Shown: positions 30,553-57,688, counted from the first letter of the stretch. The stretch: 64,000 bases of DNA from Nitrospirota bacterium (GCA_021783515.1 JAJXTV010000002.1:124001-188000); one strand, 5' to 3'. The notes: generated by a model not told the origin, from the sequence alone. Program-made: numbers and translations.

Positions 30553-30568
30553 GGGAGGGCTTATGCAC

Positions 30569-36724: not shown

Positions 36725-36799
36725 ATGAAAACGATGAAATGTTATAATACGCAAGTTGAAAATAGGAAAAGCGAGGTGGAATCGGCATGGGAGAGATAA
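36725..36799 (+). CDS. Possible 24-residue leader ORF
   Basis: AGGAGG (36714-36719) lies five bases before ATG 36725. The ORF gives MKTMKCYNTQVENRKSEVES followed by AWER and a TAA at 36797-36799, inside the start of the next gene. The strong ribosome-binding site suggests it is translated and may couple translation of the 11-haem protein. It may also be chance. Confidence 0.3.
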   Translation: MKTMKCYNTQVENRKSEVESAWER

Positions 36800-39192
36800 T
36801 CGTGAGGAAGACGAGAGGCTGGAACTGGAAGGTCAAGATCAGTCCCGTGCTGATCTTCATCCTGGTGTTCGGCACGCTTATGTATCTTGATTTCGGTGGC
36901 CGGGCCGAGGCTGCGGTAGGAGACAACCTCCTCCATAACAGCGCGAACCTGGGCAACCAGGGCTGGCCGACGGGCTGGGGCGTCGCAGGCGGCAGATACG
37001 GCGCCTTCACCTGCGAGACGTGCCATACGAAAACGACAACGAACATCAAGAGGATCAAGACGGCCATCACGGCGCCCAACGGCACAGATACGTGGCCGAA
37101 CGGTTCGACTACGACCGGTACTATCACCTTTACCAAGGCCGACGCGGCGAACAACCTGTCCGATATGGGGGCCACCGCGACCCCGTGGGCCGGCATCTGT
37201 AACGTCTGCCACGATCCGACGAAGCACAGTCATTATGCATACAACGCGTCGGACGGCGTCCATAATGTCGGGCTGGACTGCGGCAGGTGCCACCTGCACA
37301 GCAATGCGTTCCAGGGGGCGGGCAAATGTACAGACTGCCACAATACGACGCAGTCGGGCGCGGCGATCACCAGGCAGGCCATAGTTCCGCTGTTCAGCGC
37401 CAATTCGCACCACGTTCAGGGCGTAACGCTCGACAGCTCGCATTGTTATGCCTGCCACTGGGAGGCCAACTCCGACGGTTCGGTCAACAGCACCTATCAC
37501 CCGTACGCTGACGCACCTATTGAGTTGGTGGTGTGGGGGACCTCGACGACGAGGCCGACTACGCACACAACCGGCACCACCGCCGTCACATATGACTCGA
37601 CCCTCCAGACGAGGACCGAGCTGCAGAAGATCAATCAGGTCTGCCTCGGCTGCCATAACGATGCAAACCTTAATACGACGCCGTTTTCGAGTGCGACCCC
37701 CGCATACAACGACACGAGCAAGACAAGCAAGTATGCATGGGACGCAAGCAGCATCGATGCAAGGTATTCTCAGACAGGCACCACGACCTGGGGCAAGTTC
37801 TCCTCGACGACATATACGAACGTATCGCCGAAGGACAAGCAGAGGAAGGCCTACTCCGCGCACGGCAGGGCCGACCTCAACCAGCGCGGCTGGGACACGA
37901 ACGAGACATGGCCGAACACCAGCGGCGGAAACGTCGCGACCGGCGCGGTCGTCCTCTGCATTGACTGTCACAATGCCCACGGCTCGACCGTTGCGGGAAC
38001 GACCACAAGCTACACGAGCGCAACGACCAACGGCGGTTTACTCAAGGACGTGACATCGGGCCGCGACTCGGCAGTTACCTATAAGGCCATATCCGGCGGA
38101 GGGATCGCCGGCCATAACGTCTACAACGCCGGAGCGGGCATTTGCTTCGACTGCCATGAAAACTCGGCGGGCACTGTGCTCGGCAACGGTACGACTCCGT
38201 GGGGTTACGATACCTACGGCGGCACCGTGCCGGTCAGGGGTTATTTCGACAAGCCCTACTGGGACGGCACCAGCGCAGTGAAGAACGGCGCGGAGACGAG
38301 GTTCGCGCTTAAGAATACCCTGTCCATCGCCGGCGGCCATTTCGGCGCCTCCTCGACGCTACAGGAACCCGGCGCTCCGGCCACTTCGACGATCGGCGGA
38401 CTTTGTACGCCTTGCCATGACCCGCACGGCGTGACGAGCAATATTGCGAAGATCGCCGCTGCCGACAAGGTGTATGCGGTTCCCCTCCTGAAGGGCACGT
38501 GGATCACGTCGCCGTATAAAGAGGACGCACCCCCCGCGGACAACGGGAGATACAGGGTCGGAGGCCGATCCGGCCAGTCGAGCGGAGGCTATAATTACTT
38601 CAGCATGCCGACGTATAATATCGACCAGAATACGTTCACCTCTACGAAGCGGACGGTAGTGAGCTGGGGGAACCCCAATCCGATCACCCAGACGACGACT
38701 CAGTTTGCCGGTCTCTGTCTGCAGTGCCATCTGCAGACGAACATTCACCCGAACACGACCGGCGCATGGAAGAGCTATGCGAGGGTCCATAACACGGTCG
38801 AGGGCTGGGGCGGCCAGGGCGCCAATGCGGCCAACGCGATGCATTCCTATGTCTGCTCGAAGTGCCATACGACGCATAATACCTGCCTGCCGAGGCTTGC
38901 GATCACGAACTGCCTCGACTGGAAGCACAGGGGCATGAGGGTATCGGGCGGAACGGCCGGAACGCACGTAGGCAGCGGTAACAGCGGCGTCGGTCAGGGA
39001 AGGTTCCCTGGGGGCGGCGGCGGTAACGGCAGGCAGCCGGCGCTCGGGCAGGGCTTTACCAAATACCTGTTCGGCACGGCTGGCGCCAATTCGAGCACGA
39101 GGCCGAACATACCGGCGTGCCATGACCGGACGACCGCGGGCGGCACGACCTGGCCGGGTGCGGAGCTTTGGAACAGCAAGACCCCGTGGTAA
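36787..39192 (+). CDS. 11-haem secreted cytochrome
   Basis: This 801-residue protein starts at ATG 36787, with GAGGTGG upstream. An N-terminal hydrophobic helix (VLIFILVFGTLMYLDF) acts as signal or anchor and ends near RAEAA. Eleven CXXCH motifs by my count are spread over residues 75-690: CETCH, CNVCH, CGRCH, CTDCH, CYACH, CLGCH, CIDCH, CFDCH, CTPCH, CLQCH and CSKCH. The C-terminal 100 residues hold no CXXCH but a Gly-rich stretch (GRFPGGGGGNGRQPALGQGF). Sites are more widely spaced than in the giant cytochrome, so it is probably a globular haem domain string. It is the last cytochrome gene, ending 94 bases before the small peptide gene. Confidence 0.85.
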   Translation: MGEIIVRKTRGWNWKVKISPVLIFILVFGTLMYLDFGGRAEAAVGDNLLHNSANLGNQGWPTGWGVAGGRYGAFTCETCHTKTTTNIKRIKTAITAPNGTDTWPNGSTTTGTITFTKADAANNLSDMGATATPWAGICNVCHDPTKHSHYAYNASDGVHNVGLDCGRCHLHSNAFQGAGKCTDCHNTTQSGAAITRQAIVPLFSANSHHVQGVTLDSSHCYACHWEANSDGSVNSTYHPYADAPIELVVWGTSTTRPTTHTTGTTAVTYDSTLQTRTELQKINQVCLGCHNDANLNTTPFSSATPAYNDTSKTSKYAWDASSIDARYSQTGTTTWGKFSSTTYTNVSPKDKQRKAYSAHGRADLNQRGWDTNETWPNTSGGNVATGAVVLCIDCHNAHGSTVAGTTTSYTSATTNGGLLKDVTSGRDSAVTYKAISGGGIAGHNVYNAGAGICFDCHENSAGTVLGNGTTPWGYDTYGGTVPVRGYFDKPYWDGTSAVKNGAETRFALKNTLSIAGGHFGASSTLQEPGAPATSTIGGLCTPCHDPHGVTSNIAKIAAADKVYAVPLLKGTWITSPYKEDAPPADNGRYRVGGRSGQSSGGYNYFSMPTYNIDQNTFTSTKRTVVSWGNPNPITQTTTQFAGLCLQCHLQTNIHPNTTGAWKSYARVHNTVEGWGGQGANAANAMHSYVCSKCHTTHNTCLPRLAITNCLDWKHRGMRVSGGTAGTHVGSGNSGVGQGRFPGGGGGNGRQPALGQGFTKYLFGTAGANSSTRPNIPACHDRTTAGGTTWPGAELWNSKTPW

Positions 39193-39240: not shown

Positions 39241-39286
39241 GCATTATAGACGGTAGAAACAGATCAGCATGGAAAGGAGGTGCAGG

Positions 39287-39349
39287 ATGAAGAAGCTAAC
39301 ATACGTGAAACCGAAAGTGGTCGGGTCGGCAAGTGTGCATCCCTGCTGA
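39287..39349 (+). CDS. 20-residue putative precursor peptide (RiPP or peptide-derived cofactor)
   Basis: GGAAAGGAGG lies six bases before ATG 39287. The product is MKKLTYVKPKVVGSASVHPC. It has a basic N-terminus, an aromatic-x-x-Pro motif (YVKPKV) like the W/Y-x-K-P of PqqA and the YxxPxV of leader peptides bound by recognition domains, and a short C-terminus with Ser, His, Pro and a terminal Cys. There is one Tyr and no Arg or Glu. A strong terminator follows 21 bases after the stop. Downstream are two methyltransferases, two B12-type radical SAM proteins, two sulfotransferases and a deiminase-fold enzyme. An in-frame ATG at 39269 would add MERRCR but overlaps the ribosome-binding site. That it is translated and modified is an inference. 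Confidence 0.6.
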   Translation: MKKLTYVKPKVVGSASVHPC

Positions 39350-39370
39350 TTGATACGAACCGCACAAGAT

Positions 39371-39408
39371 CGAGGTGAGGCCGGAAGACGGTCCTCACCT
39401 CGTTTTTT
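39371..39408 (+). terminator. Strong rho-independent terminator after peptide gene
   Basis: CGAGGTGAGG (39371-39380) pairs with CCTCACCTCG (39393-39402). Inner CCG/CGG also pairs, and TTTTTT follows. It separates the peptide gene from the enzyme genes, so the peptide can be made in excess. Confidence 0.9.
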
Positions 39409-39467
39409 GTCGGCGGTCCGCATGGCCCGGACCGGCCGTCAGGTGGCGGAATCCGGCGGATGCGGGT

Positions 39468-39473
39468 TATAAT
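39468..39473 (+). promoter_or_regulatory. Possible -10 element for enzyme gene set
   Basis: TATAAT in GGGTTATAATAAAAAG, about 190 bases before ATG 39663, in the otherwise gene-free stretch 39409-39662. No clear -35 is seen. A similar GTTATAATAAAAA occurs at 56320-56332. Confidence 0.3.
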
Positions 39474-39662
39474 AAAAAGTGCAAAATAAGGCATCAAAGG
39501 CGATCTTTTCCAGGAATGAGGGCGCAGTTCTTCAGTGAAATTCATATGCATACTTCCTTTATCTCCCGCAAAGGGGAGCTTCTCCTCCCATGTGACGGCA
39601 AGGCGAATGGACCCCGGAGATCCTGAGGCGGAGTCGGCGCAGGACGGCCTGGTAGCGATCTC

Positions 39663-40400
39663 ATGAAGACAGTAGTTGATCAGTTCAGGAGGAGGGCCGG
39701 GACCTATTCGGGGTCGGCCAACTGGATCGTCGATAAGGCGCTGATCCGGGCGCATATTGACGCCTGCGGCCCGCGGCTTGGCTATCTTATAGAGGTCTGT
39801 TGCGGCACGGGGGTGGTCGGGAGAAACCTCGCGGCTGCCGGGTGGCGGGTCTGCGGGGTGGACCTCACGCGGGAGATGGCCCAGGAGGCAAACCGGCATT
39901 TCCCCTGCATCTGTACCCCTGCAGAAGATATTCCCTTCCTCGACGCGGCCTTCGACGCGGCCGTTTTGCGACAGGCCTATTTTCTGCTTGAAGACGGGCA
40001 GAAGGCGCTCGCCGAGATAGGCCGGGTGCTGAAGCCCGGCGGGGCCTTCGTCCTGAGCCAGACCGTACCGTATTCGGCGGAGGACGCCCCATGGCTCGAA
40101 AAAGTCCACCGCGCAAAGCAGGCCCAGCTCAGGACCTTCCATACCGAAGAGACGCTGGCGGATGAGCTCGAGCGGGGACATTTCCGCATTGCCGGGGTGA
40201 AACGGTTGTCGGTGCGGGAAAATATTACGAGGTGGATGGAGGCCGCTCCGGAGCTTTCGGAGGAGAAGCGGGCCGAGGTCTGCGGGTTTGTCTCCGGCGC
40301 GCCCGAGGCCTATCGCCGCGTCCACAACGTGGAGATCGTCGGCGGAGAGATATTCGAGGACTGGAACTGGGTGATATTCAGCGCGGAGAAGAAGAAATGA
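39663..40400 (+). CDS. Class I SAM methyltransferase, paralogue 1 (peptide cluster)
   Basis: This 245-residue UbiE-like methyltransferase has RRRAGTYSGSANWIVDKALI at the N-terminus, SAM motif I YLIEVCCGTGVVGRNLA (about 40-56), GVDLTREMAQEA as the acidic strand, and LKPGGAFVLSQTV. The C-terminal RRVHNVEIVGGEIFEDWNWVIF aligns with RFREIHNVRFEGDDIIDAML in the protein at 41884. The two are clear paralogues around a radical SAM gene. The shared SxNWxxDxxLI start is unusual and may mark a substrate-recognition part. Methylation of the modified peptide or a small cofactor is inferred. It overlaps the next gene by ATGA. The ribosome-binding site is weak, so the start is uncertain. Confidence 0.8.
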   Translation: MKTVVDQFRRRAGTYSGSANWIVDKALIRAHIDACGPRLGYLIEVCCGTGVVGRNLAAAGWRVCGVDLTREMAQEANRHFPCICTPAEDIPFLDAAFDAAVLRQAYFLLEDGQKALAEIGRVLKPGGAFVLSQTVPYSAEDAPWLEKVHRAKQAQLRTFHTEETLADELERGHFRIAGVKRLSVRENITRWMEAAPELSEEKRAEVCGFVSGAPEAYRRVHNVEIVGGEIFEDWNWVIFSAEKKK

Positions 40401-41887
40401 GGTCGGGCCGGGAGAACTCCGCCGAGACGATCAGGCGCGTCGCGGCCCTGCCGCTTCCCCACGAGGCAGAGGCGGCCCACCGGACGTCGTTCGGCCTGCT
40501 GGTGCCCCCGTCGGTCTTCGTCGTCCCACGGGGATGGGAGTGGACCCATACCGCGCCGTTCGAAGGGCCTTCGCTTATCGCGGGGCTTGTCAGGGGGCTC
40601 GGCTATCCCTTCCGCCTCTTCGACCAGAGGGAGGATTTCGATCCGGAACATCTCCGCGGCCTGACAACGGGCTGCGATATCGTCGGCATCAGCGTCTTCG
40701 GCGACAGCTTCACCTACGTCCGCCGGGCGGTCGAGATACTCAAGGAAGAGAACCCTGCGAGGCCGGTTGTCCTCGGCGGTCCGCTTGCGACGGCGGTCCC
40801 GCGTCTTTTTCTTGAGGCGACGCGGGCGGATTTCGTGGTGGCGGGCGAGGGCGAGCTTACGCTGACCGAGCTGCTCGACCACCTTACCGGGAACGAGTGG
40901 GCGCTGCCTAAGGAGCAGATCCCCGGTCTTACGTGGCGGGACGGGACGGGGGCGGCAAGAAGCAACTCCCCGAGGCCCCAGCTGACCGACCTCGACGTGC
41001 TGCCCTTCCAGGACTTCACGGTCTGGGAGCGCTTCCGGGGAAAGACGATCCCGGAGATCTATCTGTCGTATTCCCGGGGCTGCGCCAACAGCTGCACCTT
41101 CTGCTATCGCGCCTTTCCGAAGCTGAACATGAAGTCTGTTGAAAGGGTGAAACGGGAGATCGATTATTACGCCGCCTTCGGGTTCGGCATGGCGTGGTGG
41201 AACGACCTCACCTTCGTCACCGACCGTGAATATGTCCACAGACTGATGAGGGCCGCCTTTCAGGACCATTCCTTCCGGTGGAACGCCTTCAGCAGGGTCG
41301 GCCTGCTCGACGAGGAGACGCTGCTTCTGATGAAGGAGAAGGGGCTCGATATCGTCCTTTACGGGATGGAGTCGGTCTCCGGCGCAGTCCTCGACAGCTA
41401 CCGGAAGGGCATTTCGACGTCGGCGATGATCGACACCATCGAGCTGCACCGCAGGTGCGGCGTGAAGGTGGGGGGCCTCTTCATCATCGGCGCCCCCGGC
41501 GACGACCGCCGGAGCATGGATGATCTGATCGGGTTCTGCAACGAGTTCAGGGAAGTGACGAGGGTGAAGTACCTCTCGGCGCTTCCGGGCACGGTCTTTT
41601 ACCGGCAGTGCCTCAAAGACGGAGTCATCAGGGATGAAGTGAAGCACCTGGAGTGGCTCTCTGAGGAGCAGTCGATCGAGGAGGACATTGCGCATGAGGG
41701 GTTCGTTAAGTTTACGGAGCACCTTTCGAAAGAAGAACTCCGCAGCATCTACCGGGAAGTGAACCACCGGATCGAGGTGAGGCCGTACGATTACCGGAAC
41801 GCCGACAACGTCTTCCTCGGCGAGGGGGAAAAGTTTGTGAGAAGGAAACCGATCGATTCGACTAAAAGGACAGGAATGAATAGATGA
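40397..41887 (+). CDS. B12-binding-type radical SAM enzyme 1 (peptide cluster)
   Basis: This 496-residue protein starts at ATG 40397 inside the ATGA overlap with the methyltransferase. Residues 33-165 have a cobalamin-binding-like Rossmann domain (DIVGISVFGDSFTYVRRA, PVVLGGPLATAVP, DFVVAGEGELTLTELLDHL). I see no DxHxxG, so any cobalamin would be base-off without a His ligand. The radical SAM cluster motif is CANSCTFC (Cys229, Cys233, Cys236), followed by WWNDLTFVTDREYV and LFIIGAPGDDRRSMDDLI. Class B radical SAM enzymes of this type methylate or rearrange unactivated carbons in natural products. It resembles the enzyme at 46096. Action on the peptide is inferred. Confidence 0.85.
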   Translation: MRSGRENSAETIRRVAALPLPHEAEAAHRTSFGLLVPPSVFVVPRGWEWTHTAPFEGPSLIAGLVRGLGYPFRLFDQREDFDPEHLRGLTTGCDIVGISVFGDSFTYVRRAVEILKEENPARPVVLGGPLATAVPRLFLEATRADFVVAGEGELTLTELLDHLTGNEWALPKEQIPGLTWRDGTGAARSNSPRPQLTDLDVLPFQDFTVWERFRGKTIPEIYLSYSRGCANSCTFCYRAFPKLNMKSVERVKREIDYYAAFGFGMAWWNDLTFVTDREYVHRLMRAAFQDHSFRWNAFSRVGLLDEETLLLMKEKGLDIVLYGMESVSGAVLDSYRKGISTSAMIDTIELHRRCGVKVGGLFIIGAPGDDRRSMDDLIGFCNEFREVTRVKYLSALPGTVFYRQCLKDGVIRDEVKHLEWLSEEQSIEEDIAHEGFVKFTEHLSKEELRSIYREVNHRIEVRPYDYRNADNVFLGEGEKFVRRKPIDSTKRTGMNR

Positions 41888-42615
41888 AAAAGGCTGAGGC
41901 GCATTTCAGGAAAAGGGCTCATAAGTATAACCGCTCCTCGAACTGGGTGAGCGACGAAAAATTGATCGCCAGGATCTTCGAGCTCTCGGGCGCGGGGAAG
42001 GACTCGATCGTGCTCGACATCGCCACCGGCACCGGCCTCATTGCGAAGGAGTTCTACGGAAGGGTGGGAAAGGTTACCGGTCTGGACATCTGCCGCGACA
42101 TGGTCGAGCATGCGAAGGGCTGCATGGACGAGATCGTCTTCTCTCCCGTGGAGCAGATGCCGTTTGCCGACGACACCTTCGACGTATGCGTATGCCGGCA
42201 GGGGCTCCAGTTCGCCGAACTCGGACCGGCGATCTCGGAGATCCACCGTGTGCTGAAGCCGGGCGGCACGGCGGTGCTCTGCCATCTGACCGCGTACGGC
42301 GAAGAGGACCGGGAGCTGACCTTCCGGATCCAGGAGCTCCGCAACCCGGCGCGAAAGAATTACCTGATGCCGGACGATATCCCGGCCGCGCTCCGGCGGC
42401 AGGGGTTCCGCGACGTGCAGGACATACGTTATGTGACGGACGAGTCGGTCGGAAAGTGGATCGACAACGGGGCGATCGAGGAGGAGCGGATGCAGAAGAT
42501 CAGGGAGATCTACCGGTCCTCGGGCCGGCGATTCAGGGAGATCCATAATGTCAGGTTCGAAGGGGACGACATCATCGATGCGATGCTCCTTGTGATCGTG
42601 AAGGCGAGGAAATAG
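41884..42615 (+). CDS. Class I SAM methyltransferase, paralogue 2 (peptide cluster)
   Basis: This 243-residue protein is a paralogue of the one at 39663. It has FRKRAHKYNRSSNWVSDEKLIARI at the N-terminus (shown in part), SAM motif I IVLDIATGTGLIAKEF, GLDICRDMVEHAKG, CVCRQGLQFAELG and LKPGGTAVLCHLT. The start overlaps the radical SAM stop by ATGA, so the three genes 39663-42615 form a tightly coupled unit: methyltransferase, radical SAM, methyltransferase. Two different methylation steps on one product are a plausible reading. Its closest general relatives are UbiE/MenG-type enzymes, but there are no quinone genes around. Confidence 0.8.
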   Translation: MKKAEAHFRKRAHKYNRSSNWVSDEKLIARIFELSGAGKDSIVLDIATGTGLIAKEFYGRVGKVTGLDICRDMVEHAKGCMDEIVFSPVEQMPFADDTFDVCVCRQGLQFAELGPAISEIHRVLKPGGTAVLCHLTAYGEEDRELTFRIQELRNPARKNYLMPDDIPAALRRQGFRDVQDIRYVTDESVGKWIDNGAIEEERMQKIREIYRSSGRRFREIHNVRFEGDDIIDAMLLVIVKARK

Positions 42616-42691
42616 GCGCAGTGCCAATATAGAGACGATATTCAATCATAAAATTTCAATGAAACTTTATTAGCAGAGACTGATTAGCGGC

Positions 42692-43735
42692 ATGAACGAT
42701 CCGATATTCATCATAGGCACCGAGCGGTCGGGGACGAACCTCCTCCGGCTGATCCTCAACTCCCACAGCGGCATCGCCGTCCCGCATCCCCCCCATATCA
42801 TGAAATTTTTCCAGCCGCTGCTGCCGCTCTACGGCGACCTGAGTCAGGAGAGGAACTTCAGGCGGCTCATCGGAGACGTCTGCCGGGTGGTGGAGCTGCA
42901 TCCCTATTCGTGGGAGATGCGGCCCGACCGGGAGGCGGTCTTCGGAAACGCGGAGGACCGGGACCTGATGGCTGTCTATTTCGAGGTCTATGACCAGTAC
43001 CGCGCCTATGCCGGAAAGAGGCGGTGGGCCTGCAAGAGCACCTTCATGATCGAGCACGTCGCGGAGGTCCTCCGGCGCCGGCCCGGCGCGAAGTTCATCT
43101 ACATGGTGCGGGACGGGCGCGACGTGGCGGTATCGGCAAAGTCGTCGATCTTTAACAGGTGCCACGCGTACTACGTCGCCGAGCTCTGGAGCAGGGAGCA
43201 GCGGCTCGGCTTGTCCTGGCTTTCGCGGCTGCCCGCCGAACGGATCATGCTGCTGAAATATGAAGAGCTCCTTCGCGATCCGGGGTGCGTGACGGAGCGG
43301 ATCTGCTCGTTTCTGGGCGAGCCGTTCGAGGACCGGATGCTCGAGTATCATCGCTCGGGCGAAGCCTCGAAATCCGGGGGCCTCAGCCTTTCCTGGAAGA
43401 ACACGTCCATGCCGGTGATGCGCGACAATGCGGGGAAGTACAGGCGGCTTCTTTCCGAAAAAGAGGTATTGCTCTTCGAGACGGTTGCCGGCGAAGAGCT
43501 GAAGGAACTGGGATACGGGCTGGCCTTCCCCGGGGCCCCGCTCGAAAAGGGGCGCATGACGCCGGGAGCGCGTTTTTCGTACCGGGCGGGCGATGCGCTC
43601 CTTCGCATCAGGGCCGAGGCGAGGCATATGCTGCGGGACAAAAGCACGGCGGACCGTCTCAAAAAGCTGGGATACCTCAGGTACCTGAGGCTCATGAGGG
43701 GCCTCCAGCGGTTCGCCGGCGCGGGAATGCTCTGA
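42692..43735 (+). CDS. Sulfotransferase family protein 1 (peptide cluster)
   Basis: This 347-residue protein has the PAPS 5'-phosphosulfate loop FIIGTERSGTNLLRLIL at 6-22 and the 3'-phosphate-binding segment FIYMVRDGRDVAVSAKSS near 130-150. RIMLLKYEELLRDPGCVTERICSFLG (shown in parts) is typical of bacterial sulfotransferases. It should move a sulfate group from PAPS to a hydroxyl, for instance a Tyr, Ser or sugar OH. The single Tyr6 and Ser14/Ser16 of the small peptide are possible targets, though carbohydrates are equally possible. It is 76 bases from the preceding gene, with a poor ribosome-binding site, and six bases from the next sulfotransferase. Confidence 0.85.
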   Translation: MNDPIFIIGTERSGTNLLRLILNSHSGIAVPHPPHIMKFFQPLLPLYGDLSQERNFRRLIGDVCRVVELHPYSWEMRPDREAVFGNAEDRDLMAVYFEVYDQYRAYAGKRRWACKSTFMIEHVAEVLRRRPGAKFIYMVRDGRDVAVSAKSSIFNRCHAYYVAELWSREQRLGLSWLSRLPAERIMLLKYEELLRDPGCVTERICSFLGEPFEDRMLEYHRSGEASKSGGLSLSWKNTSMPVMRDNAGKYRRLLSEKEVLLFETVAGEELKELGYGLAFPGAPLEKGRMTPGARFSYRAGDALLRIRAEARHMLRDKSTADRLKKLGYLRYLRLMRGLQRFAGAGML

Positions 43736-43741
43736 TCCGGG

Positions 43742-45118
43742 ATGCATAAGATAGCCAGGACGATCCATACGATCAATACGCTTCGGGAGGGGGTCCTTCG
43801 GAAATACGGGGACACCCCTTTGCTGAAGAGTACGCTCGACGATGTCAAACGCGTCGTGGTGATCAACTCGTCCTCCCGCTCCGGGTCGAGCCTTCTCTAT
43901 GCCCTTCTCCGCAAGCTCCCTGGTGTATACGCGCTGACGGGAGAGGCGGCGCCCTTTTACAAACTGAACACCTCGATCAACGGCTTCAATATCTTCGAAT
44001 CCGACAAGATCCCTTCGGAGCTTCTGGAAAAGGTCGTCGACTACCGGGGGCTGTCGCGGGATTTTCTGTCGGACATGTACTGCTGCGGGGGCGACGTCCA
44101 GGTGAGGGACATCGACGTCAACGCGTACGCCGACGATCTGGCGATCCGTTTTCTCCTTCAGTGGCCGGACGTCGACTTTACGGTAGAGGGGCTGAGGGCC
44201 TGCGTCTTCGACGCGTTCGGGCACTACGCGAGGCTCGCCCCGGCGTTCGATACGGAAAACTTCTATGTTACCCTCCTCAAGAGAGTGGCGGCGGCCTATC
44301 CCCGCGTGAACCCTTACTATTACGACATCAACACCGACAAGGTGACGATCAACTTCCCTCATCTCGATATTCCGACCGGCCCCCCTTCCTCGCATTTCAC
44401 GATCGAGGAGCCGCCGTTCATACTGCTGCCGCCCGGCCGCAAGGCGACCCCGGCGGACCTTTCGGAGAAGACCCTTCTTCTGAAATCGACGGTCGACTGC
44501 TATCGGATGAACCTCATCGAGAGGATCTTCCGGAACGCGGACCTGAGGATCATCCATCTCGTGCGCAACCCCGCGGCGACGACAAACGGCATCTACGACG
44601 GCTGGCTGCACCGCGGCTTCTTCTCTCACAATCTCAGGCCGCATTTCCAGAACAGCAAGAACGGGAAGGGGCTTGGGATAAAGGGATACAGCGACGAATA
44701 TTCGTACGGCGCCTTCTGGTGGAACTTCGATCTCCCGGACGGCTGGCAGGAGTATGCGGGGAAAGAACTGGTCGACGTCTGTTCGTTCCAGTGGTATTCC
44801 GCCAATGCCGAGATACTGAAGAACCTGTCGCGGGGACGGAGGGACTCCTGCACGGTCCGCTTCGAAAATATCATCAGGGACCTAGATTCGCGCCGTGAGG
44901 AGTTCGGCCGGATGCTCGCTTTCATGGGCCAGCCAGCCGCCGATATCGAGGCCGTCGGCATCGACGACCTTCCGATCGTGCAGTCGACTCTCCCGCCTCA
45001 GCGGTACCGCTGGAAGAAGCGGAGGCATCTGATCAACAGGCTGCTCGACGACCCGATAATCCTCGATATGAGCAGGCTGCTCGGGTATCCGAAGGAGAAG
45101 ATGGAGGAATGGCTGTAG
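43742..45118 (+). CDS. Sulfotransferase-like protein 2 (peptide cluster)
   Basis: This 458-residue protein has the PAPS loop VVVINSSSRSGSSLLYALL (38-56) and 3'-phosphate motif LRIIHLVRNPAATTNGIYDGW near 260-280. It is about 110 residues longer than the protein at 42692. The extra part lies between the two motifs (about residues 85-240) and contains TINFPHLDIPTGPPSSHF. It ends with an RWKKRRHLINRLL basic segment. Only the nucleotide-binding parts are recognisable. Paired sulfotransferases suggest two sulfation steps or a heterodimer. Confidence 0.75.
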   Translation: MHKIARTIHTINTLREGVLRKYGDTPLLKSTLDDVKRVVVINSSSRSGSSLLYALLRKLPGVYALTGEAAPFYKLNTSINGFNIFESDKIPSELLEKVVDYRGLSRDFLSDMYCCGGDVQVRDIDVNAYADDLAIRFLLQWPDVDFTVEGLRACVFDAFGHYARLAPAFDTENFYVTLLKRVAAAYPRVNPYYYDINTDKVTINFPHLDIPTGPPSSHFTIEEPPFILLPPGRKATPADLSEKTLLLKSTVDCYRMNLIERIFRNADLRIIHLVRNPAATTNGIYDGWLHRGFFSHNLRPHFQNSKNGKGLGIKGYSDEYSYGAFWWNFDLPDGWQEYAGKELVDVCSFQWYSANAEILKNLSRGRRDSCTVRFENIIRDLDSRREEFGRMLAFMGQPAADIEAVGIDDLPIVQSTLPPQRYRWKKRRHLINRLLDDPIILDMSRLLGYPKEKMEEWL

Positions 45119-45121
45119 GCG

Positions 45122-46003
45122 ATGGTCGATTCGGAGTACGGAAGGCTGGCGTCGGTCCTGCTATACGGGCCGGGGCCTGAGATAGACCGTTACGGCAATC
45201 CCGGGGAGGTGCTTCATCTCGGCCCGATCGACCATGCCGGCATTTCGGAGGAGTGCGGCGCGCTCCGGAGGACATACGAGGAAAACGGCGTCTCGGTGGT
45301 CCAGGTCGATCCTTCTCCTGTCGGGGAGGACAGACGCTATCTCTATAACCTGATGTACTGCCGCGACCTCTTCTTCATGACTCCGGACGGCGCGGTCCTT
45401 TCCCGGATGGCCCATCCGGTTCGCAGGGAAGAGGTGCGGTATGCGGAACGCACGCTCAGGAAGCAGGGCATTCCGATACGATGCGCTGTCTGGGGCGAAG
45501 GAACGTTCGAAGGGGCGGATGCCCTCTGGGTCGGCGAGAGACTCGTCGCGGTCGGCGTCGGCAACAGAACGAACCGGGAGGGATTCGAGCAGGTGCGGGC
45601 CGAGCTGGGCCGGACCGGGGTGGCATGTGTCGCGCTCCCTGCGCGCCAGACCCTGACGCAGCATCTGCTCGGCACGATCCAGATCGTCGACAGGGACCTG
45701 GCCTTTGTGAGAAGACAGATCGTCGATGAGGAAGCGGTCCGCTTTCTTGCCGGCCGGGGCTTCAGACTGGTGGATGTTCCCGAGAACGACGAGGTGAGGA
45801 AGAGACAGGCGATGAATATTGTCGTGACGGCGCCGCGCACGATCCTCATGAGCGCCGGCTGCCCGGAGACGAGAGAGATATTCCTGGATGCGGGCGTTGC
45901 GGTCGCCGCCGAAGTCGGGATTGACCAGCTGACACGCGGCGGCGGCGGACTTGCCTGCGCAACAGGCATCATTTCGAGGAATTTGGTTACAATAGAACGA
46001 TGA
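45122..46003 (+). CDS. Arginine deiminase/DDAH-fold enzyme (amidinotransferase superfamily)
   Basis: This 293-residue protein has the guanidino-modifying enzyme fold. CRDLFF at 80-85 is the RD of the substrate pocket, GEGTFEGADAL (125-135) supplies Glu130 and Asp133, QTLTQHLLG has His181 and GGGLACATGII has the nucleophile Cys279. These match the Cys-His-Glu/Asp set of arginine deiminase, DDAH and related amidinotransferases, so it should be active. Known reactions turn Arg or methyl-Arg into citrulline or transfer the amidine group. The small peptide holds no Arg, so it may use free Arg, a different guanidine, or add an amidine to a Lys. It starts three bases after the previous stop. Confidence 0.85.
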   Translation: MVDSEYGRLASVLLYGPGPEIDRYGNPGEVLHLGPIDHAGISEECGALRRTYEENGVSVVQVDPSPVGEDRRYLYNLMYCRDLFFMTPDGAVLSRMAHPVRREEVRYAERTLRKQGIPIRCAVWGEGTFEGADALWVGERLVAVGVGNRTNREGFEQVRAELGRTGVACVALPARQTLTQHLLGTIQIVDRDLAFVRRQIVDEEAVRFLAGRGFRLVDVPENDEVRKRQAMNIVVTAPRTILMSAGCPETREIFLDAGVAVAAEVGIDQLTRGGGGLACATGIISRNLVTIER

Positions 46004-46095
46004 TGTTTTTATCAGGAAATCATTGCCGATAATAACGAAGTCTGTTTTGCCCGGGATGCGCGCTGCGATCATGTTCCGGACGGAAAGGTGGCTCT

Positions 46096-47487
46096 ATGAA
46101 CAGAACAGTTGACGAAGAAAAACTCGAGGCGCTCAGGAAGGACCCCCGTCCGGAGAGTTCGGCCCCTGCGTTTACCGTGATCCTGCCGTCGTCTCCGCAG
46201 GTGCCGACGCCCAACCGGGAGTTCCTGCTCGAAACACCGATCGAAGGAGTGAGCTCTGTCGCGACCGTGGCGAAGCTTGCGGGCTGGGACACGAAGGTCC
46301 GTGACCTCAGGATCGGGGAAGATTTCGAGGAGGTCTGCGCCGACGCGGCGAACCGCGGCGGCGTGGTCGCAATGCCGACGTACGTCGACTCCTATCCGGT
46401 GAACCGCAGCGTCCTTAAGAGGGTGAAGGAGCTGAACCCCGGGCTCACGACTGTCGTCGGAGGCCCTCTCGTCTCGTCCCTGCCCGAGCCGCTGATCCGC
46501 GGACTTCAGGCGGATTATGCCGTGCTGCGCGAGGGCGAGGCCACGCTTCTTGATCTGCTCGACCACCTGGCCGCGGGCGGCGGCGCCGATGCGGCCCGGG
46601 CGATTGCCGGCCTCGGGATCAGACAGGGCGGCGCGGTCAGCCTTACTCCCGAACGGCCCCAGCTCAACGACCTGGACGTGCTCCCGATCCCCGACCTTTT
46701 TCTTTATCCCGGCGTGCAGAAGGACCCGGTCATCCCCGAACTCGGGCTGACGACCGCCCGCGGCTGCTACGGCCGCTGCACCTTCTGTTTTCTCAACATG
46801 AAGAAGCTCTCGTACAAGACGCCCGCCCGGTTCCGGGAGGAGGTGTCCGACATCGTGGCGAAGCACAAGATCGGGTATTTCTATGTGAACGACCTTACGT
46901 TTACCTCGAAGCTCGACAGGACCTATCAGATCTGCGACGTCCTGAAGGAGTTCAATATCACCTGGTCCTGTTCGACCCGCGTCGAGCGGATCAAACCGGA
47001 GGTGCTGAAGTACATGCACGACAGCGGCTGCCGCGACATCTGGTACGGCGTGGAATCGCTCGACCAGACGGTCCTCGAGCTGTCGAACAAAAGGACGAAA
47101 GTCGAGGAGATAGAGTATGCGGTGAGCGAGACTGTCAAGGCGGGGATCAAGGTGATGGCCAACCTGATCGTCGGGCTTCCGGGCGAGAGCGAGGAGTCGC
47201 TCAGAAAGATGATGGATTTCTGCCGGAGGACCGAGGTGATTCCGACCTCGATCAAATACCTGACCCCGTTCCCCGGGACGAAGATTTACGACATGGCGGT
47301 CGAGCGCGGGTTCATCCCCGACCATCTCAGGTATATCGAGGGGCTCGCCGAGCGGAAGGTGAATGACGTCAACGACTCGATCATCAACCTTACCGACCTG
47401 CCGGAGGAGCGGCTCCGGGAGGCGTATGCGACCCTGATGCAGATCCGCGAGGACCGGCTGAAGACGTTTTCGGAGACTGGTGCGTAA
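46096..47487 (+). CDS. B12-binding-type radical SAM enzyme 2 (peptide cluster)
   Basis: This 463-residue protein has a cobalamin-binding-like domain at about 25-160 (GVVAMPTYVDSYPVNRSVLKRV in parts, TTVVGGPLVSSLPEPLI, DYAVLREGEATLLDLLDHL) without DxHxxG. The radical SAM motif is CYGRCTFC (Cys224, Cys228, Cys231). FYVNDLTFTSKLDRTYQ parallels NDLTFVTDREYV in the enzyme at 40397, and both share LP-rich PNRE/PPSVF starts and PGTxxY near the end. It is likely a methylase or other carbon-modifying enzyme of the same pathway. GGAAAGGTGG precedes ATG 46096. The 92-bp gap before it shows no terminator. Confidence 0.85.
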   Translation: MNRTVDEEKLEALRKDPRPESSAPAFTVILPSSPQVPTPNREFLLETPIEGVSSVATVAKLAGWDTKVRDLRIGEDFEEVCADAANRGGVVAMPTYVDSYPVNRSVLKRVKELNPGLTTVVGGPLVSSLPEPLIRGLQADYAVLREGEATLLDLLDHLAAGGGADAARAIAGLGIRQGGAVSLTPERPQLNDLDVLPIPDLFLYPGVQKDPVIPELGLTTARGCYGRCTFCFLNMKKLSYKTPARFREEVSDIVAKHKIGYFYVNDLTFTSKLDRTYQICDVLKEFNITWSCSTRVERIKPEVLKYMHDSGCRDIWYGVESLDQTVLELSNKRTKVEEIEYAVSETVKAGIKVMANLIVGLPGESEESLRKMMDFCRRTEVIPTSIKYLTPFPGTKIYDMAVERGFIPDHLRYIEGLAERKVNDVNDSIINLTDLPEERLREAYATLMQIREDRLKTFSETGA

Positions 47488-47536
47488 GACGGGGAGGCTT
47501 CCCCTGTCCCGCTTACCAGCCAGGAGTGGGCCTGAC

Positions 47537-48529
47537 ATGATAAAGGATGTTACAGGATGGATAAAGTATGCGGCTGCTGCCGCGATGATGCTGGCGCTGG
47601 TCGGGGCCGCGGCTGTCGACGCCGCCGGTTTCCCGCCGGACGCGGAGCCGGAGGCGAGGGTGGTGCTTCTGGGGACGGGAAACCCCAAGCCGGACCCTGA
47701 CCGGTCGGGACCCGCCACTGCGGTCGTGATAAACGGGAGCGCATATCTCGTGGACTTCGGGCCCGGAGTGGTGCGGCGTGCGGCCGCGGCCGTGCTCGAC
47801 AAGGGGATCAGGGCGCTCGATCCGGCGAACATCAGGGTGGCCTTCGTCACCCATCTTCATTCCGACCATACCGCCGGCTATCCGGACCTCATCTTTACGC
47901 CCTGGGTGATGGGCCGGAGCGAGCCGCTCGAGGTCTACGGCCCGAAAGGCATTAAATGGATGACGGACCGCATTCTCGAGGCGTACCGTGAGGACATTAA
48001 GATACGCACCGAGGGGATGGAGCATGCCTCGAAGGAGGGCTGGAAGGTGAACGCCCATGAGATACACGCGGGTGTCGTGTACAAGGACGAAAACGTCACC
48101 GTCACCGCCTTTCCGACGAAACACGGAGAATGGAAGGAGTCCTACGGCTATCGGTTCGACGCGGGGGGCCGCAGCATCGTGATCCCCGGCGACACCACGC
48201 CGACCCAGGCGACGATCGATGCCTGTAACGGCTGCGATGTCCTTGTCCACGAGGCGCTGACCATGAAGTTTCTGAACAACCCGATGCGGCCTAACCCCCA
48301 GGGCTTCGACCTGAAGGCCTATGCGGCGAAATATCATACGACGACGGTCCAGCTGGCGGAGCTTGCGAAGAAGGCGAAGCCGCATCTCCTGATACTGGTG
48401 CATAACCCGATCACCCTGAGGCCCGGCAGGCGTCCCTTCGCCTCTACGCCCGAGGACCTGCTGCGGGAGATCCGCGATGCCGGCTACCACGGCAAGGTGG
48501 TCGTGGGCCGGGACCTCGATGTATATTAG
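47537..48529 (+). CDS. Exported metallo-beta-lactamase-fold hydrolase
   Basis: This 330-residue protein has an N-terminal hydrophobic signal (WIKYAAAAAMMLALVGAAA) and an MBL fold of RNase Z/lactonase type. THLHSDHTAGYPDL has the zinc ligands HxHxDH at 106-111, TKHGEWKESYGYRF has a further His, IVIPGDTTP gives the bridging Asp, and ILVHNPITLR ends the site. Being exported excludes tRNA processing, so it is probably a periplasmic hydrolase of an ester, lactone or phosphodiester. ATG 47537 is chosen because AGGAG lies upstream and the signal starts directly. It may process the cluster product on export; this is inferred from context. Confidence 0.8.
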   Translation: MIKDVTGWIKYAAAAAMMLALVGAAAVDAAGFPPDAEPEARVVLLGTGNPKPDPDRSGPATAVVINGSAYLVDFGPGVVRRAAAAVLDKGIRALDPANIRVAFVTHLHSDHTAGYPDLIFTPWVMGRSEPLEVYGPKGIKWMTDRILEAYREDIKIRTEGMEHASKEGWKVNAHEIHAGVVYKDENVTVTAFPTKHGEWKESYGYRFDAGGRSIVIPGDTTPTQATIDACNGCDVLVHEALTMKFLNNPMRPNPQGFDLKAYAAKYHTTTVQLAELAKKAKPHLLILVHNPITLRPGRRPFASTPEDLLREIRDAGYHGKVVVGRDLDVY

Positions 48530-48568
48530 GGGGCGCAAAAGTCCCGATCCAAAGGAGGAATATAGCCC

Positions 48569-50020
48569 ATGAAAAAGTTGAGCAGAAGAGATTTTCTCAG
48601 AAAGGCCGGCCTGGGCGCGGCCGGACTGGGGCTGGGGTTTCCTCTTATTGACGGCTTGACCCGGTCCGCTGCCGCGTTTTCCGCAGGGGGCAAGCGGTAT
48701 AAGGACTACAATATCGTCTTTGTGAGTTTCGACGCGGTGCAGGCGGCGCATGTCCATGCGTACGGTTATCCCAGGGACATAACGCCCACCATCGACTCGA
48801 TGGCGGCGCAGGGCTTCAGGTTCGCCAACACGATTTCTGTCTCTTCCTGGACCGTCCCCGCCTCGATGACGTGGTTCACCGGGGTCTATCCCTCGGAGCA
48901 CAGGCTCCTCAATAAATTCGTTATCTACGAGCCGCCGGTCGAAAAGCTTTCCAAACTCAAAGAGCTTGCCCCGAATCTGGTAACCCTCGCCGAGATCATG
49001 AAGAAAAACGGCTACGCAACAGGCGGCTTTACCGGCGACGCGGGCGTCAACGGTATCTTCGGGTACAGCCAGGGCTTCGATGCCTACTTTGACAAGGTCA
49101 AGTTCGGCGGGCTGGACCGGAGCATCCCCGAAGCGCTTGTCTGGCTGAAGGAGAACAAGGGTAAGAAATTTTTTATGTTCCTGCACGGATACGACGCCCA
49201 CGGCCAGCACATACCTACCGGAGGGTTTGATTACCGGTTTGTCGATCCGGGATATGACTACCGGTACAAGGGGACGAAGGAGGAGCAGGAGGCGCTTCGG
49301 GAGGAAGGGCTGGCAAAGGGAAAACTTAATATGCGCGAGGAAGACGTGAGGTTCTGGCGGGCGATCTACGACGAAAAGATAAACCGCGAGGACGCGCTCT
49401 TCAAGGGGTTTCTGGACGGGCTCGGTAAGCTCGGACTCATGGACAAGACGCTCTTTGTTCTCACTGCCGACCACGGCACGGAATGTTTCGAGCACGGCCG
49501 CATCGACCACGGCTTCACCCTCTTTAACGAGCTCGTCCACGTGCCGCTGATCATTACACTGCCGCGAGGGAAAGACCGCAGGGTCATTTCGGATCAGGTG
49601 AGCAGCGTCGACGTAATGCCGACCGTCCTGGACCTGCTCGACGTCCGGCTCTCCGACCACGTCAGAAAACAGCTTCGCGGATCGAGTCTCGTCCCTGCGA
49701 TGAGCGGCGTGCCGGTTGCGAAGGACGTGTATTCCGAAACCGACTACCGGCTCTATACCTTCAAACGGTCGATCCTCACGAAGGAAGGATGGAAATTTGT
49801 CTATACGCTGGAGAACAAGGGCAGGGAGCTCTACAATCTAAAGGATGATCCGGGCGAAAAGGCTGATCTTGTCGACCGTGAACCCCGTATCGCCTACGAG
49901 CTGGAGCAGAGGCTTTTCGCGTTCTTTAAGTCGATCGGCCACGACCTGACGAAGGGGCGCTGGGAGACGGGGCTGAGCCCTGTCTATGAGTCCCAGGCGA
50001 AGGGATATAAAAAGAAATGA
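48569..50020 (+). CDS. Tat-exported sulfatase/alkaline phosphatase superfamily enzyme with Thr nucleophile site
   Basis: This 483-residue protein starts with a twin-arginine signal, SRRDFLRKAGLGAAGLGLG (5-23). The catalytic fold is sulfatase-like: NIVFVSFDAV keeps the metal Asp55, FTGVYPSEH follows the nucleophile site, and TADHGTE supplies metal ligands near 303. The usual Cys/Ser-x-Pro-x-Arg site reads Thr95-Val-Pro-Ala-Ser, so no formylglycine can form. A Thr nucleophile is known in phosphoethanolamine transferases and NPP-type enzymes, so it may be a phospho- or sulfo-hydrolase/transferase. Tat export implies folding with metal in the cytoplasm. AAAGGAGG lies upstream of ATG 48569; it overlaps the next gene by ATGA. 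Confidence 0.8.
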   Translation: MKKLSRRDFLRKAGLGAAGLGLGFPLIDGLTRSAAAFSAGGKRYKDYNIVFVSFDAVQAAHVHAYGYPRDITPTIDSMAAQGFRFANTISVSSWTVPASMTWFTGVYPSEHRLLNKFVIYEPPVEKLSKLKELAPNLVTLAEIMKKNGYATGGFTGDAGVNGIFGYSQGFDAYFDKVKFGGLDRSIPEALVWLKENKGKKFFMFLHGYDAHGQHIPTGGFDYRFVDPGYDYRYKGTKEEQEALREEGLAKGKLNMREEDVRFWRAIYDEKINREDALFKGFLDGLGKLGLMDKTLFVLTADHGTECFEHGRIDHGFTLFNELVHVPLIITLPRGKDRRVISDQVSSVDVMPTVLDLLDVRLSDHVRKQLRGSSLVPAMSGVPVAKDVYSETDYRLYTFKRSILTKEGWKFVYTLENKGRELYNLKDDPGEKADLVDREPRIAYELEQRLFAFFKSIGHDLTKGRWETGLSPVYESQAKGYKKK

Positions 50021-51660
50021 AAAGGAAACTTCTTTCCGCGGCCATCGCCGTTGTCCTGGTGGCCGGGCCGGCCGTTGCAGGAGCGGCTTCTTCGCGGGAG
50101 AAACCTGCGCCGGCGTACGAAAAGACGAACGTGATCCTCATCTCGCTGCAGTGCCTCAGGCCCGACCACCTCGGGGCGTACGGATATAAAAGGGAGACGA
50201 GCCGGAATATCGACAGCCTCGCGAAGCGTTCCGTCCTGTTCGAAAATGCGATATCACAGGCGAACCTGACGCCGGTTGCCCAGATGAGCGTATTCACCTC
50301 TCAGTATCCGCGCGTGCACGGGCTCGTCTCGTTCGAGGTGACTCCCGAGATGGTATCGAAGAGGACGCTGCCCGAGATCCTGAAGTATTACGGCTACACT
50401 ACCGCGGCGGTTGTAAGTTCGCCGGAGTTTTTTCTCCGGTACGATGCCGGATCAGGGACCACGGTCAACCCGGGGGACGTCTTTTCGAAACCCTTCCTTT
50501 ACTTCGGCCGAACGGTGCGCGGGCTGGGAGGCCGCAACGTGAGAAAGCTCCCGACCGACGCGCTCCGGTGGATACAGGACCACAAAGACAAGAAGTTCTT
50601 CCTCTGGATCGCCAGCGGACTTATCCATATGCCCTATGCCGAGTCGGTCCCCGCGCCGTATAAGACGATGTACGACCCGCCCGGCTATACGCCGTTTTGG
50701 AAGCGTATCGGATTCGGCGGCGGAGGCGTCAGCCGGGACGATGCCCCTTCGTATGAGGTCTTCTCCCGCGTCCGGGGCGACGAATTTTACTGGGGCTTTT
50801 CACCGGCCTATCGCCTCACCGAAGAGGACGTGAATTACGTCAACGCCCGGTACGACGCAGGCGTCTATTATACCGATCAGTTCATCGGCGAGTTGATGAA
50901 GCTCCTGGATTCGCTGAACCTTACCGACAAGACGCTCGTCATCCTGCAGTCGATCCACGGCGACGACCTCGGCGAGAGAGGGGACTTTTTCCATTACGAC
51001 GTCACCGATACCGTCGTCAGGAATGCCCTTCTCATGGAGTTCCCCGGGGGCGAATTCGCCGGCAGAAGGATCTCCGGGCAGGTGCAGGGCATAGATGTTA
51101 TGCCGACGGTCCTCGACTACCTCGGCATCCCGGTCCCGCATGAGGCAGAGGGCAACAGCCTGATTCCGCTCATAAGAGGGGACGCCACGGCCTCCCCGTC
51201 CGAATACTCCTATATCGACAGGATGCCGTGGTGGGAGTTCAACCTGAGCAGGTGGTATCTCGGTTTCCAGCTCTCGAATGGCGCCCATTTGCCGCCTTCG
51301 GAGAAAGAGAAGCTTGAGGCATACCGGAAGATGCTGAAAACGAGTTTCGACGCGCTTGATTATCCGCCCGGCGACATCGCCGTGAGGACGAACGACTGGA
51401 AGCTGGTCATGAGGAAGAACAGGCAGCTCCTCGAAAAGGTATCGTGGTGGAGGTTTATCACCGGGAAGCCGCAGAAGATTGACGAGCTGGAGCTCTATGA
51501 CCTGAAGCGAGACCCCCTTGAAAAGAAGAACGTTGCGGCCGAGAACCCGGCCGTGGTCGCGAAGCTGAAGGAGAAGCTCCTTACGTGGGACGAGTTGATG
51601 GAGAGCCGGAAAGCGGCCTACCGGAAGGAAGAAAAACGCTGGATCATCCCCTATCCGTGA
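50017..51660 (+). CDS. Sulfatase-like protein, probably catalytically degenerate
   Basis: This 547-residue protein has a Sec signal (LLSAAIAVVLVAGPAVAGA) and the same fold as its neighbour at 48569. NVILISLQCLRPDHLGAYGY shows Gln45 where the first metal Asp is expected. The nucleophile position is Thr85 (LTPVAQMSVFTS), and the metal motif DHG is IHG (LQSIHGDDLGERGDFF). With metal ligands missing it is probably a non-catalytic partner or a binding protein. The ATGA overlap fits co-assembly with the active-looking neighbour, although one uses a Tat signal and the other Sec. A changed chemistry cannot be excluded. Confidence 0.75.
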   Translation: MKRKLLSAAIAVVLVAGPAVAGAASSREKPAPAYEKTNVILISLQCLRPDHLGAYGYKRETSRNIDSLAKRSVLFENAISQANLTPVAQMSVFTSQYPRVHGLVSFEVTPEMVSKRTLPEILKYYGYTTAAVVSSPEFFLRYDAGSGTTVNPGDVFSKPFLYFGRTVRGLGGRNVRKLPTDALRWIQDHKDKKFFLWIASGLIHMPYAESVPAPYKTMYDPPGYTPFWKRIGFGGGGVSRDDAPSYEVFSRVRGDEFYWGFSPAYRLTEEDVNYVNARYDAGVYYTDQFIGELMKLLDSLNLTDKTLVILQSIHGDDLGERGDFFHYDVTDTVVRNALLMEFPGGEFAGRRISGQVQGIDVMPTVLDYLGIPVPHEAEGNSLIPLIRGDATASPSEYSYIDRMPWWEFNLSRWYLGFQLSNGAHLPPSEKEKLEAYRKMLKTSFDALDYPPGDIAVRTNDWKLVMRKNRQLLEKVSWWRFITGKPQKIDELELYDLKRDPLEKKNVAAENPAVVAKLKEKLLTWDELMESRKAAYRKEEKRWIIPYP

Positions 51661-56452: not shown

Positions 56453-57688
56453 ATGAACTGGAAATTGATCCGCATTATCGATGCGTATGCAGGCATTCCG
56501 CTGGTATATGCAGCCCTCTGGTTAAAAAGACTTTTTCGCTCATCCGGTCCTTCGGAGGGAGACCGGACCTGTGGAAGAATATTGCTCGTGAAATTCTGGG
56601 GAATCGGCAATCTTTTCATGATGCTGCCTTCCGTGGGTGCTCTTCGGAGCGCGTATCCCGATGCGGAAATAGACATCCTTACACTGGAGACCAACCGGAG
56701 CGCGGCGGAATATCTTGGGGTGTTCGACCACGTCTATACGGTCGACACGAAGGGCTACCTGCGTTTTATCGGTGCGACGTTTTCGATGTTTTCGGCCTTG
56801 CGCAGAAGAGAGTATGATCGTGTGATCGACTTCGAGCAGTTTGCGCGCTATTCCGCTGTTGCGACCGCGGTGATCGGCAGCAAGGTGACGGTGGGGTTCA
56901 TGACCTCCCGCCAGCACAGGCATCTCCTCTATTCCCATCCCGTCGCCTACGACAACAACATCCATATCACGCGCTCGTACTGCTCCCTGGCGCGGGCCGC
57001 AGGCGCCGACTGCGCGCAATGCGACGTTTCGTTTTTCCTTCCATCCGCACGACCATCCGACGCCGGAGGTCGGGGAATTCTTGGCGGGCTCGGCGTTCCG
57101 GCGGCTGCGACGGTCATCGTTATGCACGTGGGGACGAGCGACAATTTCAGCGAACGCCGCTGGCCGACATCCTCCTATGCCGCTCTTGCGGACTTATTGG
57201 CGGGCGAGCGGAACGTCCGGATCGTGCTAACCGGTCTGAAGGAAGAGGCCCATCTGGCGGCGGAAGTGCGTGACCTTGCATCTGCCGGCGACAGGATCTT
57301 CGATGCGAGCGGAACATTGACCTTCGAGCAATATGATATGCTTATCCGCGCAAGCGCCCTCGTCGTCTCGGCCGACACTGCGGCGGTGCATATTGCATCG
57401 GCCGCCGGTATCCCCGTCGTCGGCCTCTACGGGCCGAATACCCCGGTACTGTACGGCCCCTGGGGGCGAAACGGCAGTGCGTTCTACAAGGAACTGGATT
57501 GCAGCCCCTGCATTACGAACTTCAATGCCAAGACGCACCGCTGCAGGCATCCGGAGGGGAAAGGCGCCTGCATGAGAGCAATTACCCCCGGGGAGGTATA
57601 CCAGGAGATCTGCAAGAGATACCTCGCCCCCGCTTCTGCGGAGAAGTCCCCCGGGGGACCGGTGGGGAAAAAATCATGCGTCCGATAG
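56453..57688 (+). CDS. GT9 heptosyltransferase-like glycosyltransferase
   Basis: This 411-residue GT-B enzyme of the ADP-heptose:LPS heptosyltransferase family has RILLVKFWGIGNLFMMLPSV in the N-terminal domain, FERRWP-type SERRWPTSSYAALADLL and VVSADTAAVHIASAAGIPVVGLYGPN in the C-terminal sugar-nucleotide domain. YGPWG and CSPCITNF follow, and the last is typical of GT9 proteins of Nitrospirota and Deltaproteobacteria. It should add a sugar to lipid A core or another surface glycan at the inner face of the membrane. It overlaps the radical SAM gene downstream by 13 bases. The N-terminal 45 residues hold a basic amphipathic helix. Confidence 0.85.
   Translation: MNWKLIRIIDAYAGIPLVYAALWLKRLFRSSGPSEGDRTCGRILLVKFWGIGNLFMMLPSVGALRSAYPDAEIDILTLETNRSAAEYLGVFDHVYTVDTKGYLRFIGATFSMFSALRRREYDRVIDFEQFARYSAVATAVIGSKVTVGFMTSRQHRHLLYSHPVAYDNNIHITRSYCSLARAAGADCAQCDVSFFLPSARPSDAGGRGILGGLGVPAAATVIVMHVGTSDNFSERRWPTSSYAALADLLAGERNVRIVLTGLKEEAHLAAEVRDLASAGDRIFDASGTLTFEQYDMLIRASALVVSADTAAVHIASAAGIPVVGLYGPNTPVLYGPWGRNGSAFYKELDCSPCITNFNAKTHRCRHPEGKGACMRAITPGEVYQEICKRYLAPASAEKSPGGPVGKKSCVR

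Follow-up and report, generated by a model that had tools for sequence, protein, structure and literature searches.

Organization of the Peptide Locus

The window analyzed here, a 64,000-nt stretch of a Nitrospirota bacterium genome (GCA_021783515.1, JAJXTV010000002.1:124001-188000), carries a 20-codon open reading frame (ORF) with the product MKKLTYVKPKVVGSASVHPC, placed behind two multiheme cytochrome genes and ahead of a cassette of methyltransferase, radical SAM, sulfotransferase, and deiminase genes (Table 1). The ORF is preceded by a perfect Shine-Dalgarno sequence (AAAGGAGGTG) and followed by a hairpin with a T6 tract (−30.6 kcal/mol by folding, z = −4.7 versus shuffles), which a simple consensus scan of the window did not list and which is visible in the sequence itself. 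The optimal ribosome-binding site and the strong terminator that the initial annotation had described for this 20-residue ORF both held up. The gene order it had given for the cassette was likewise confirmed by domain matches, with the match of the second sulfotransferase being weak. Both radical SAM proteins of the cassette combine a B12-binding with a radical SAM domain and display the CxxxCxxC motifs CANSCTFC and CYGRCTFC, and no gene of the cassette (methyltransferase, radical SAM, sulfotransferase, or deiminase) reaches any NCBIfam equivalog cut-off.

Further radical SAM genes lie at a distance. Within the window, two more radical SAM/SPASM-like proteins (57499-58731 and 58736-59854), which adjoin glycosyltransferase and TPR membrane-protein genes, are 28% identical to the radical SAM protein of the GeoRSP system. 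The genome's own GeoRSP operon, comprising a PqqD-family protein, a radical SAM/SPASM protein, and a putative SPASM-only protein, does not share a contig with the peptide and is located at about C18:103940-106130 (Table 1).

Table 1. Features of the peptide locus in the window and of the GeoRSP genes in the same genome (G000, contig C18).
Feature	Position	Strand	Remarks
Giant multiheme cytochrome	30524..36715	+	35 CxxCH; GSu CxxxxCH/CxxCH domains; first gene of the cyt2-cyt1-peptide block
Secreted multiheme cytochrome c	36787..39192	+	11 CxxCH; directly upstream of the peptide
Shine-Dalgarno sequence	39273..39282	+	Perfect; read from the sequence
Precursor peptide ORF (putative)	39287..39349	+	TGA stop; only copy in the genome
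Intrinsic terminator	39371..39409	+	Stem-loop 39371-39402, then T-run; ends the cytochrome-peptide unit
MT1, class-I methyltransferase	39663-40400	+	
rSAM1, B12-binding radical SAM	40397-41887	+	PF02310 + PF04055
MT2, class-I methyltransferase	41884-42615	+	ATGA overlap
ST1, sulfotransferase	42692-43735	+	
ST2, sulfotransferase	43742-45118	+	Weak Pfam match (E = 1.6e-4, below cut-off); SSRSGSSLL motif
Arginine deiminase/DDAH fold	45122-46003	+	
rSAM2, B12-binding radical SAM	46096-47487	+	PF02310 + PF04055
MBL-fold hydrolase and two sulfatase-superfamily proteins	47480..51660	+	Syntenic with the peptide in L077
PqqD family (TIGR04302)	G000:C18:105835-106128		132 bits; cut-off 100
Radical SAM/SPASM (TIGR04303)	G000:C18:104841-105809		550 bits; cut-off 400
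SPASM protein (TIGR04304)	C18, directly beside the GeoRSP rSAM		273 bits, full length; cut-off 300

A Conserved Family of Short Peptides

At 50–95% identity, the peptide recurs in 29 of 396 Nitrospirota genomes (the window's own included), with up to 14 matches per genome; a second order, that of a Desulfuromonadaceae MAG, has it in 38 of its 141 genomes. Given this recurrence, the 20-residue gene is not a chance ORF but a real member of a conserved coding family. In the window's own genome, a profile search returned exactly one copy, the window ORF (E = 6.8e-12), the next best match standing at 1.58. A relative's locus (L032), found through a search with rSAM1 in which the peptide was not used as a query, lies on a contig that begins inside the peptide gene; it carries PKVVGSASVHPC up to the stop codon, with three synonymous and no non-synonymous changes over 12 codons, and a hairpin equivalent to the window's terminator.

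In all, 94 distinct copies were read (Nitrospirota, Desulfuromonadaceae, Geobacteraceae, and their order); they give the consensus MKKxxYVxPxVVGSAxVHPC and an ORF that always ends on Cys. Tyr-15, Pro-12, Pro-2, and Cys-1 are constant among the copies, although this invariance is partly by construction, since the read-out pattern demanded Pro-12, Pro-2, Cys-1, and an aromatic residue or His at position −15. A YxxP motif is present in every copy read, as the pattern required (Tyr, Phe, Trp, and His were allowed; only Tyr was found). Gly-8 is kept in 91/93 copies and His-3 in 92/93, so the HPC ending, whose conservation the initial annotation had proposed checking, is retained, with the same caveat on Pro-2 and Cys-1. 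Pairs of copies differ at codon positions 1, 2, and 3 by 0.24, 0.27, and 0.59, which is a coding pattern, with the caveat that the copies were found by protein similarity. A Shine-Dalgarno-like motif precedes 85 of 93 family members. TGA, TAA, and TAG all serve as stop codons in the family; the use of three different stops rules out selenocysteine at the stop codon.

The peptide had no match in NCBIfam or Pfam, even at E ≤ 10. The family, often multi-copy, is previously unmodeled. The two genomes with 14 matches each (G280 and G333; loci L087, L095-L100, and L105) carry most of their copies beside carboxypeptidase-regulatory-like secreted proteins, and most of these copies have an additional Cys five residues from the end.

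The Downstream Cassette Is Very Probably a Separate System

The initial annotation had proposed the peptide as substrate of the methyltransferase and radical SAM genes that follow it, a reading with some points in its favor, given that B12-radical SAM enzymes are established as methylating peptides and that the peptide adjoins these genes both in the window and in L032, a relative. GTDB contigs scanned with rSAM1 yielded six close homologues (73–77% identity) in Nitrospirota, Desulfuromonadaceae/Geobacteraceae, and Elusimicrobia, and it is only in L032 that the peptide sits beside MT1; the other five (L033-L037) have no peptide upstream of the cassette. Conversely, an rSAM1 orthologue is absent from 27 of the 28 other peptide-bearing Nitrospirota genomes, and in the sole exception (G082) the peptide and rSAM1 lie on different contigs. 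Adjacency to the radical SAM genes is therefore not conserved, an outcome that the initial annotation had itself named as refuting its proposal, whereas the peptide is very strongly conserved next to another system (see below). The cassette and GeoRSP do tend to share genomes (the window's own and four of the six others, on one contig in the Geobacteraceae genome G407), but the two Elusimicrobia genomes carry the cassette and lack both the peptide and GeoRSP.

The strong terminator between the peptide and the cassette also tells against a joint system, as does the L077 locus (genome G073), where the order cyt2-cyt1-peptide-CarboxypepD_reg-MBL-sulf1-sulf2-GT is preserved with the cassette absent; its flanks are closely related to those of the window (GT 76% identical, MBL and sulf1 71%). 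Because L077 has the window's flanks without the cassette, the cassette (39663..47487) is, as judged from gene order, best seen as a separate and widely shared block, with the peptide on one side and the MBL/sulfatase genes on the other, outside the peptide system. The peptide is very probably not a substrate of the radical SAM genes downstream, and a role for any of the cassette genes in its modification appears highly improbable to us; adjacency within one window would thus have pointed at the wrong enzymes. A different B12 radical SAM protein, of the BchE-like type, was also considered as a partner and rejected as not general; it is encoded 170–212 nt upstream of the peptide (L103:7428-8906 and L073:3363-4841) in two genomes of the window's genus only.

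Much of the cassette is common to the loci with rSAM1 homologues. The Desulfuromonadaceae MAG carries MT1-rSAM1-rSAM2-MT2-ST1-ST2-deiminase-MBL-sulfatases, as does a Geobacteraceae MAG across two contig ends. L032 and L036 have an ABC transporter (binding protein, permease, and ATPase) between rSAM1 and rSAM2, and the MT2, sulfotransferase, and deiminase genes are absent there. The cassette (in the window and L032-L038) is probably an uncharacterized pathway of its own, with a sulfated or methylated product.

Co-Occurrence and Linkage with the GeoRSP System

At two of the loci examined, a gene matched TIGR04304, the model for the GeoRSP SPASM protein, and for this reason the GeoRSP models were run over the 396 Nitrospirota genomes. 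Of the 24 genomes in which the GeoRSP radical SAM protein (TIGR04303) exceeded its cut-off, 23 contain the peptide (Fisher p = 1e-30), while TIGR04304 (E ≤ 1e-30) was found in 22, of which 20 contain the peptide (p = 1e-24). In the second order (141 genomes), which served as an independent test, TIGR04303 was present in 35 genomes, the peptide in 38, and both in 33 (p = 2e-24). These p-values are optimistic, as genomes of one clade are not independent; the pattern nevertheless recurs in two phyla, and it holds for the six other genomes with rSAM1, where the peptide is found in the four that have GeoRSP and is missing from the two that lack it.

The two are also physically linked: in 15 of 26 Nitrospirota genomes and in 11 of 35 from the second order, less than 20 kb separates the peptide from GeoRSP. 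The peptide commonly heads the GeoRSP operon, and in one genome (G081) its start lies 77 nt past the GeoRSP radical SAM gene. The conserved operon runs peptide-CarboxypepD_reg-(second peptide)-NosD-like beta helix-CarboxypepD_reg-OpuAC-like-ResB-like, followed by phosphonate-binding-like-TPR-YedE-type transporter-permease-cupin-PqqD-rSAM-SPASM; in abbreviated form, the conserved order reads peptide-beta helix-CarboxypepD_reg-c5-ResB...PqqD-rSAM-SPASM, and the operon is partly reordered in the second order. The operon in the window's own genome matches this arrangement, minus the peptide. Among solved structures, the nearest relative of the GeoRSP radical SAM protein is PqqE (E = 2e-27). Two of the genes in that genome's operon (L130:14465-15679 and L130:12539-14452) encode a YedE-family putative selenium transporter (380 bits; cut-off 200) and, with a score below the cut-off, a Cu/Zn efflux permease of the SO_0444-like type, which hint at sulfur, selenium, or metal handling.

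Exceptions occur on both sides. In three GeoRSP genomes (G311, G454, and G497), a motif scan of the loci together with the profile found no divergent peptide, which indicates either that the pairing is not absolute or that the precursor can diverge. An assembly gap is unlikely in G454, given that its GeoRSP genes (L244) lie on a 4.3-Mb contig; this genome may have another precursor or a decaying GeoRSP system. The peptide occurs without a full-score GeoRSP radical SAM protein in six Nitrospirota and five second-order genomes; of the six, two are less than 85% complete, one has radical SAM genes cut at contig ends, and one (G001) retains the GeoRSP SPASM protein. The suggestion of a PqqA-like precursor in the initial annotation stands in so far as the peptide is short and linked to PqqD and radical SAM/SPASM proteins; its partner is probably GeoRSP rather than the adjacent genes.

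Cytochrome and Surface-Protein Neighbors

The gene directly upstream of the peptide most often encodes either a multiheme cytochrome related to that at 36787-39192, a family found ahead of the peptide in many further genomes and phyla, or a secreted protein of the FN3/SBBP or carboxypeptidase-regulatory-like type. The place beside the cytochrome genes, which the initial annotation had thought meaningful, is thus a recurrent one. Since the cyt2-cyt1-peptide order is also found in Desulfuromonadaceae and Geobacteraceae MAGs, the window peptide is read as closing an outer-surface cytochrome operon. We found no C-terminal motif common to all upstream proteins, with a WNxxxxW-type ending occurring in the cytochrome group only; the window cytochrome ends LWNSKTPW (39130-39192), and peptide-preceding cytochromes mostly end in the WN-x4-W type.

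These neighborhoods bear on whether the ORF might be an arrest or attenuator leader, in which ribosome stalling on ...VHPC-stop would control the hairpin and downstream expression with no peptide product. The distance from Tyr to the C-terminal Pro-Cys-stop is indeed fixed across copies, and a terminator-like hairpin follows 39 of 93 copies within 130 nt (versus 0 of 93 shuffled). However, the genes that follow the copies are unrelated to one another, whereas secreted-protein genes directly precede most classified copies; moreover, three different stop codons are used, and co-occurrence with a PqqD/radical SAM system is not expected of an attenuator. We consider such a leader most unlikely.

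Proposed Maturation and Role

On comparative sequence evidence, we consider it quite probable that the window ORF encodes a precursor matured in trans by GeoRSP, through its PqqD chaperone, radical SAM/SPASM enzyme, and SPASM-only partner. The precursor would be made from cytochrome or surface-protein operons as well as from the GeoRSP operon, and the PqqD-type RRE would bind its YxxPx[VI][VI]G leader. RREs are known to recognize YxxP motifs, and W/Y/LxxP/L/I is the motif reportedly bound by the PqqD group (PMC12710340). The C-terminal core, SxxVHPC, would then be altered by the GeoRSP radical SAM/SPASM enzyme. As the terminal Cys and the His before it are the obvious reactive groups, a cross-link at these residues is the simplest guess, and we tentatively propose Cys-centered chemistry, with attack on the terminal Cys or its His neighbor giving a thioether or other cross-link.

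A GeoRSP-linked peptide need not be a substrate; it could instead act as a small partner that is secreted, regulate the GeoRSP regulon, or be a carrier with a product assembled on its C-terminal Cys before release. The pairing of a YxxP motif with a PqqD-family gene, however, usually marks a modified precursor. Copies do accompany many different secreted-protein operons, and the C-terminal Cys recalls carrier-peptide chemistry (PMC9303977), but no amino-acyl ligase (PEARL-like) gene is seen in the conserved GeoRSP operon. Taken together, we regard a non-substrate role as unlikely.

As a GeoRSP-matured precursor, the peptide would yield an exported product that works alongside secreted multiheme cytochromes or surface proteins of the carboxypeptidase-regulatory-like type, either as a redox or metal ligand or in their assembly. 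Such a role with surface cytochromes or proteins, suggested by the gene neighborhood alone, is plausible yet somewhat doubtful. That all copies have nearly the same core is easier to reconcile with one product encoded by many genes than with diversified antimicrobials. More speculatively, and on balance we think this rather unlikely, the invariant-core, multi-copy peptides of Nitrospirota and their Desulfuromonadaceae/Geobacteraceae relatives may form a previously unrecognized class that is a dedicated part of extracellular multiheme cytochrome and surface-protein assemblies, with one copy per secreted operon and one central GeoRSP operon, the product acting as a redox or metal ligand or a cross-linker. 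The repeated placement beside extracellular cytochromes would tie a predicted modified peptide to extracellular electron transfer, a machinery in which we know of no such product.

Comparison with Known Systems

Lasso and other RRE-dependent precursors share the YxxPx[LVI] leader motif with the peptide (PMC10368454, PMC12710340). In contrast to lasso systems, only seven residues follow the conserved Gly of the peptide, and no lasso cyclase was seen in the operon. Mycofactocin is similar in its short conserved precursor and its PqqD-like and radical SAM proteins, but the conserved C-terminus of its precursor differs from HPC, and it is linked to nicotinoprotein dehydrogenases, whereas the peptide is linked to surface cytochromes. 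Mycofactocin was likewise proposed from co-occurrence (PMC3023750).

The PQQ system (PqqA/PqqD/PqqE) offers a similar set of parts: its precursor is likewise about 20 residues long, its chaperone belongs to the PqqD family, and its radical SAM/SPASM enzyme, PqqE, is the closest to that of GeoRSP among solved structures. The peptide differs in lacking the Glu-x3-Tyr motif (its sequence has no Glu), in having the conserved C-terminal HPC instead, and in being multi-copy, and its system differs in the extra SPASM-only protein and in its neighbors.

The system with which the peptide co-occurs, and is linked through exactly these three families (TIGR04302, TIGR04303, and TIGR04304), is GeoRSP. In the open-access literature, we found no paper that uses the name GeoRSP for this system and none on the peptide. 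GeoRSP is named in protein-family libraries, whose models cover the maturases only, with no precursor modeled and the peptide unmatched by NCBIfam or Pfam. The peptide is a specific candidate substrate for this orphan radical SAM system and, being testable, would open it to biochemistry.
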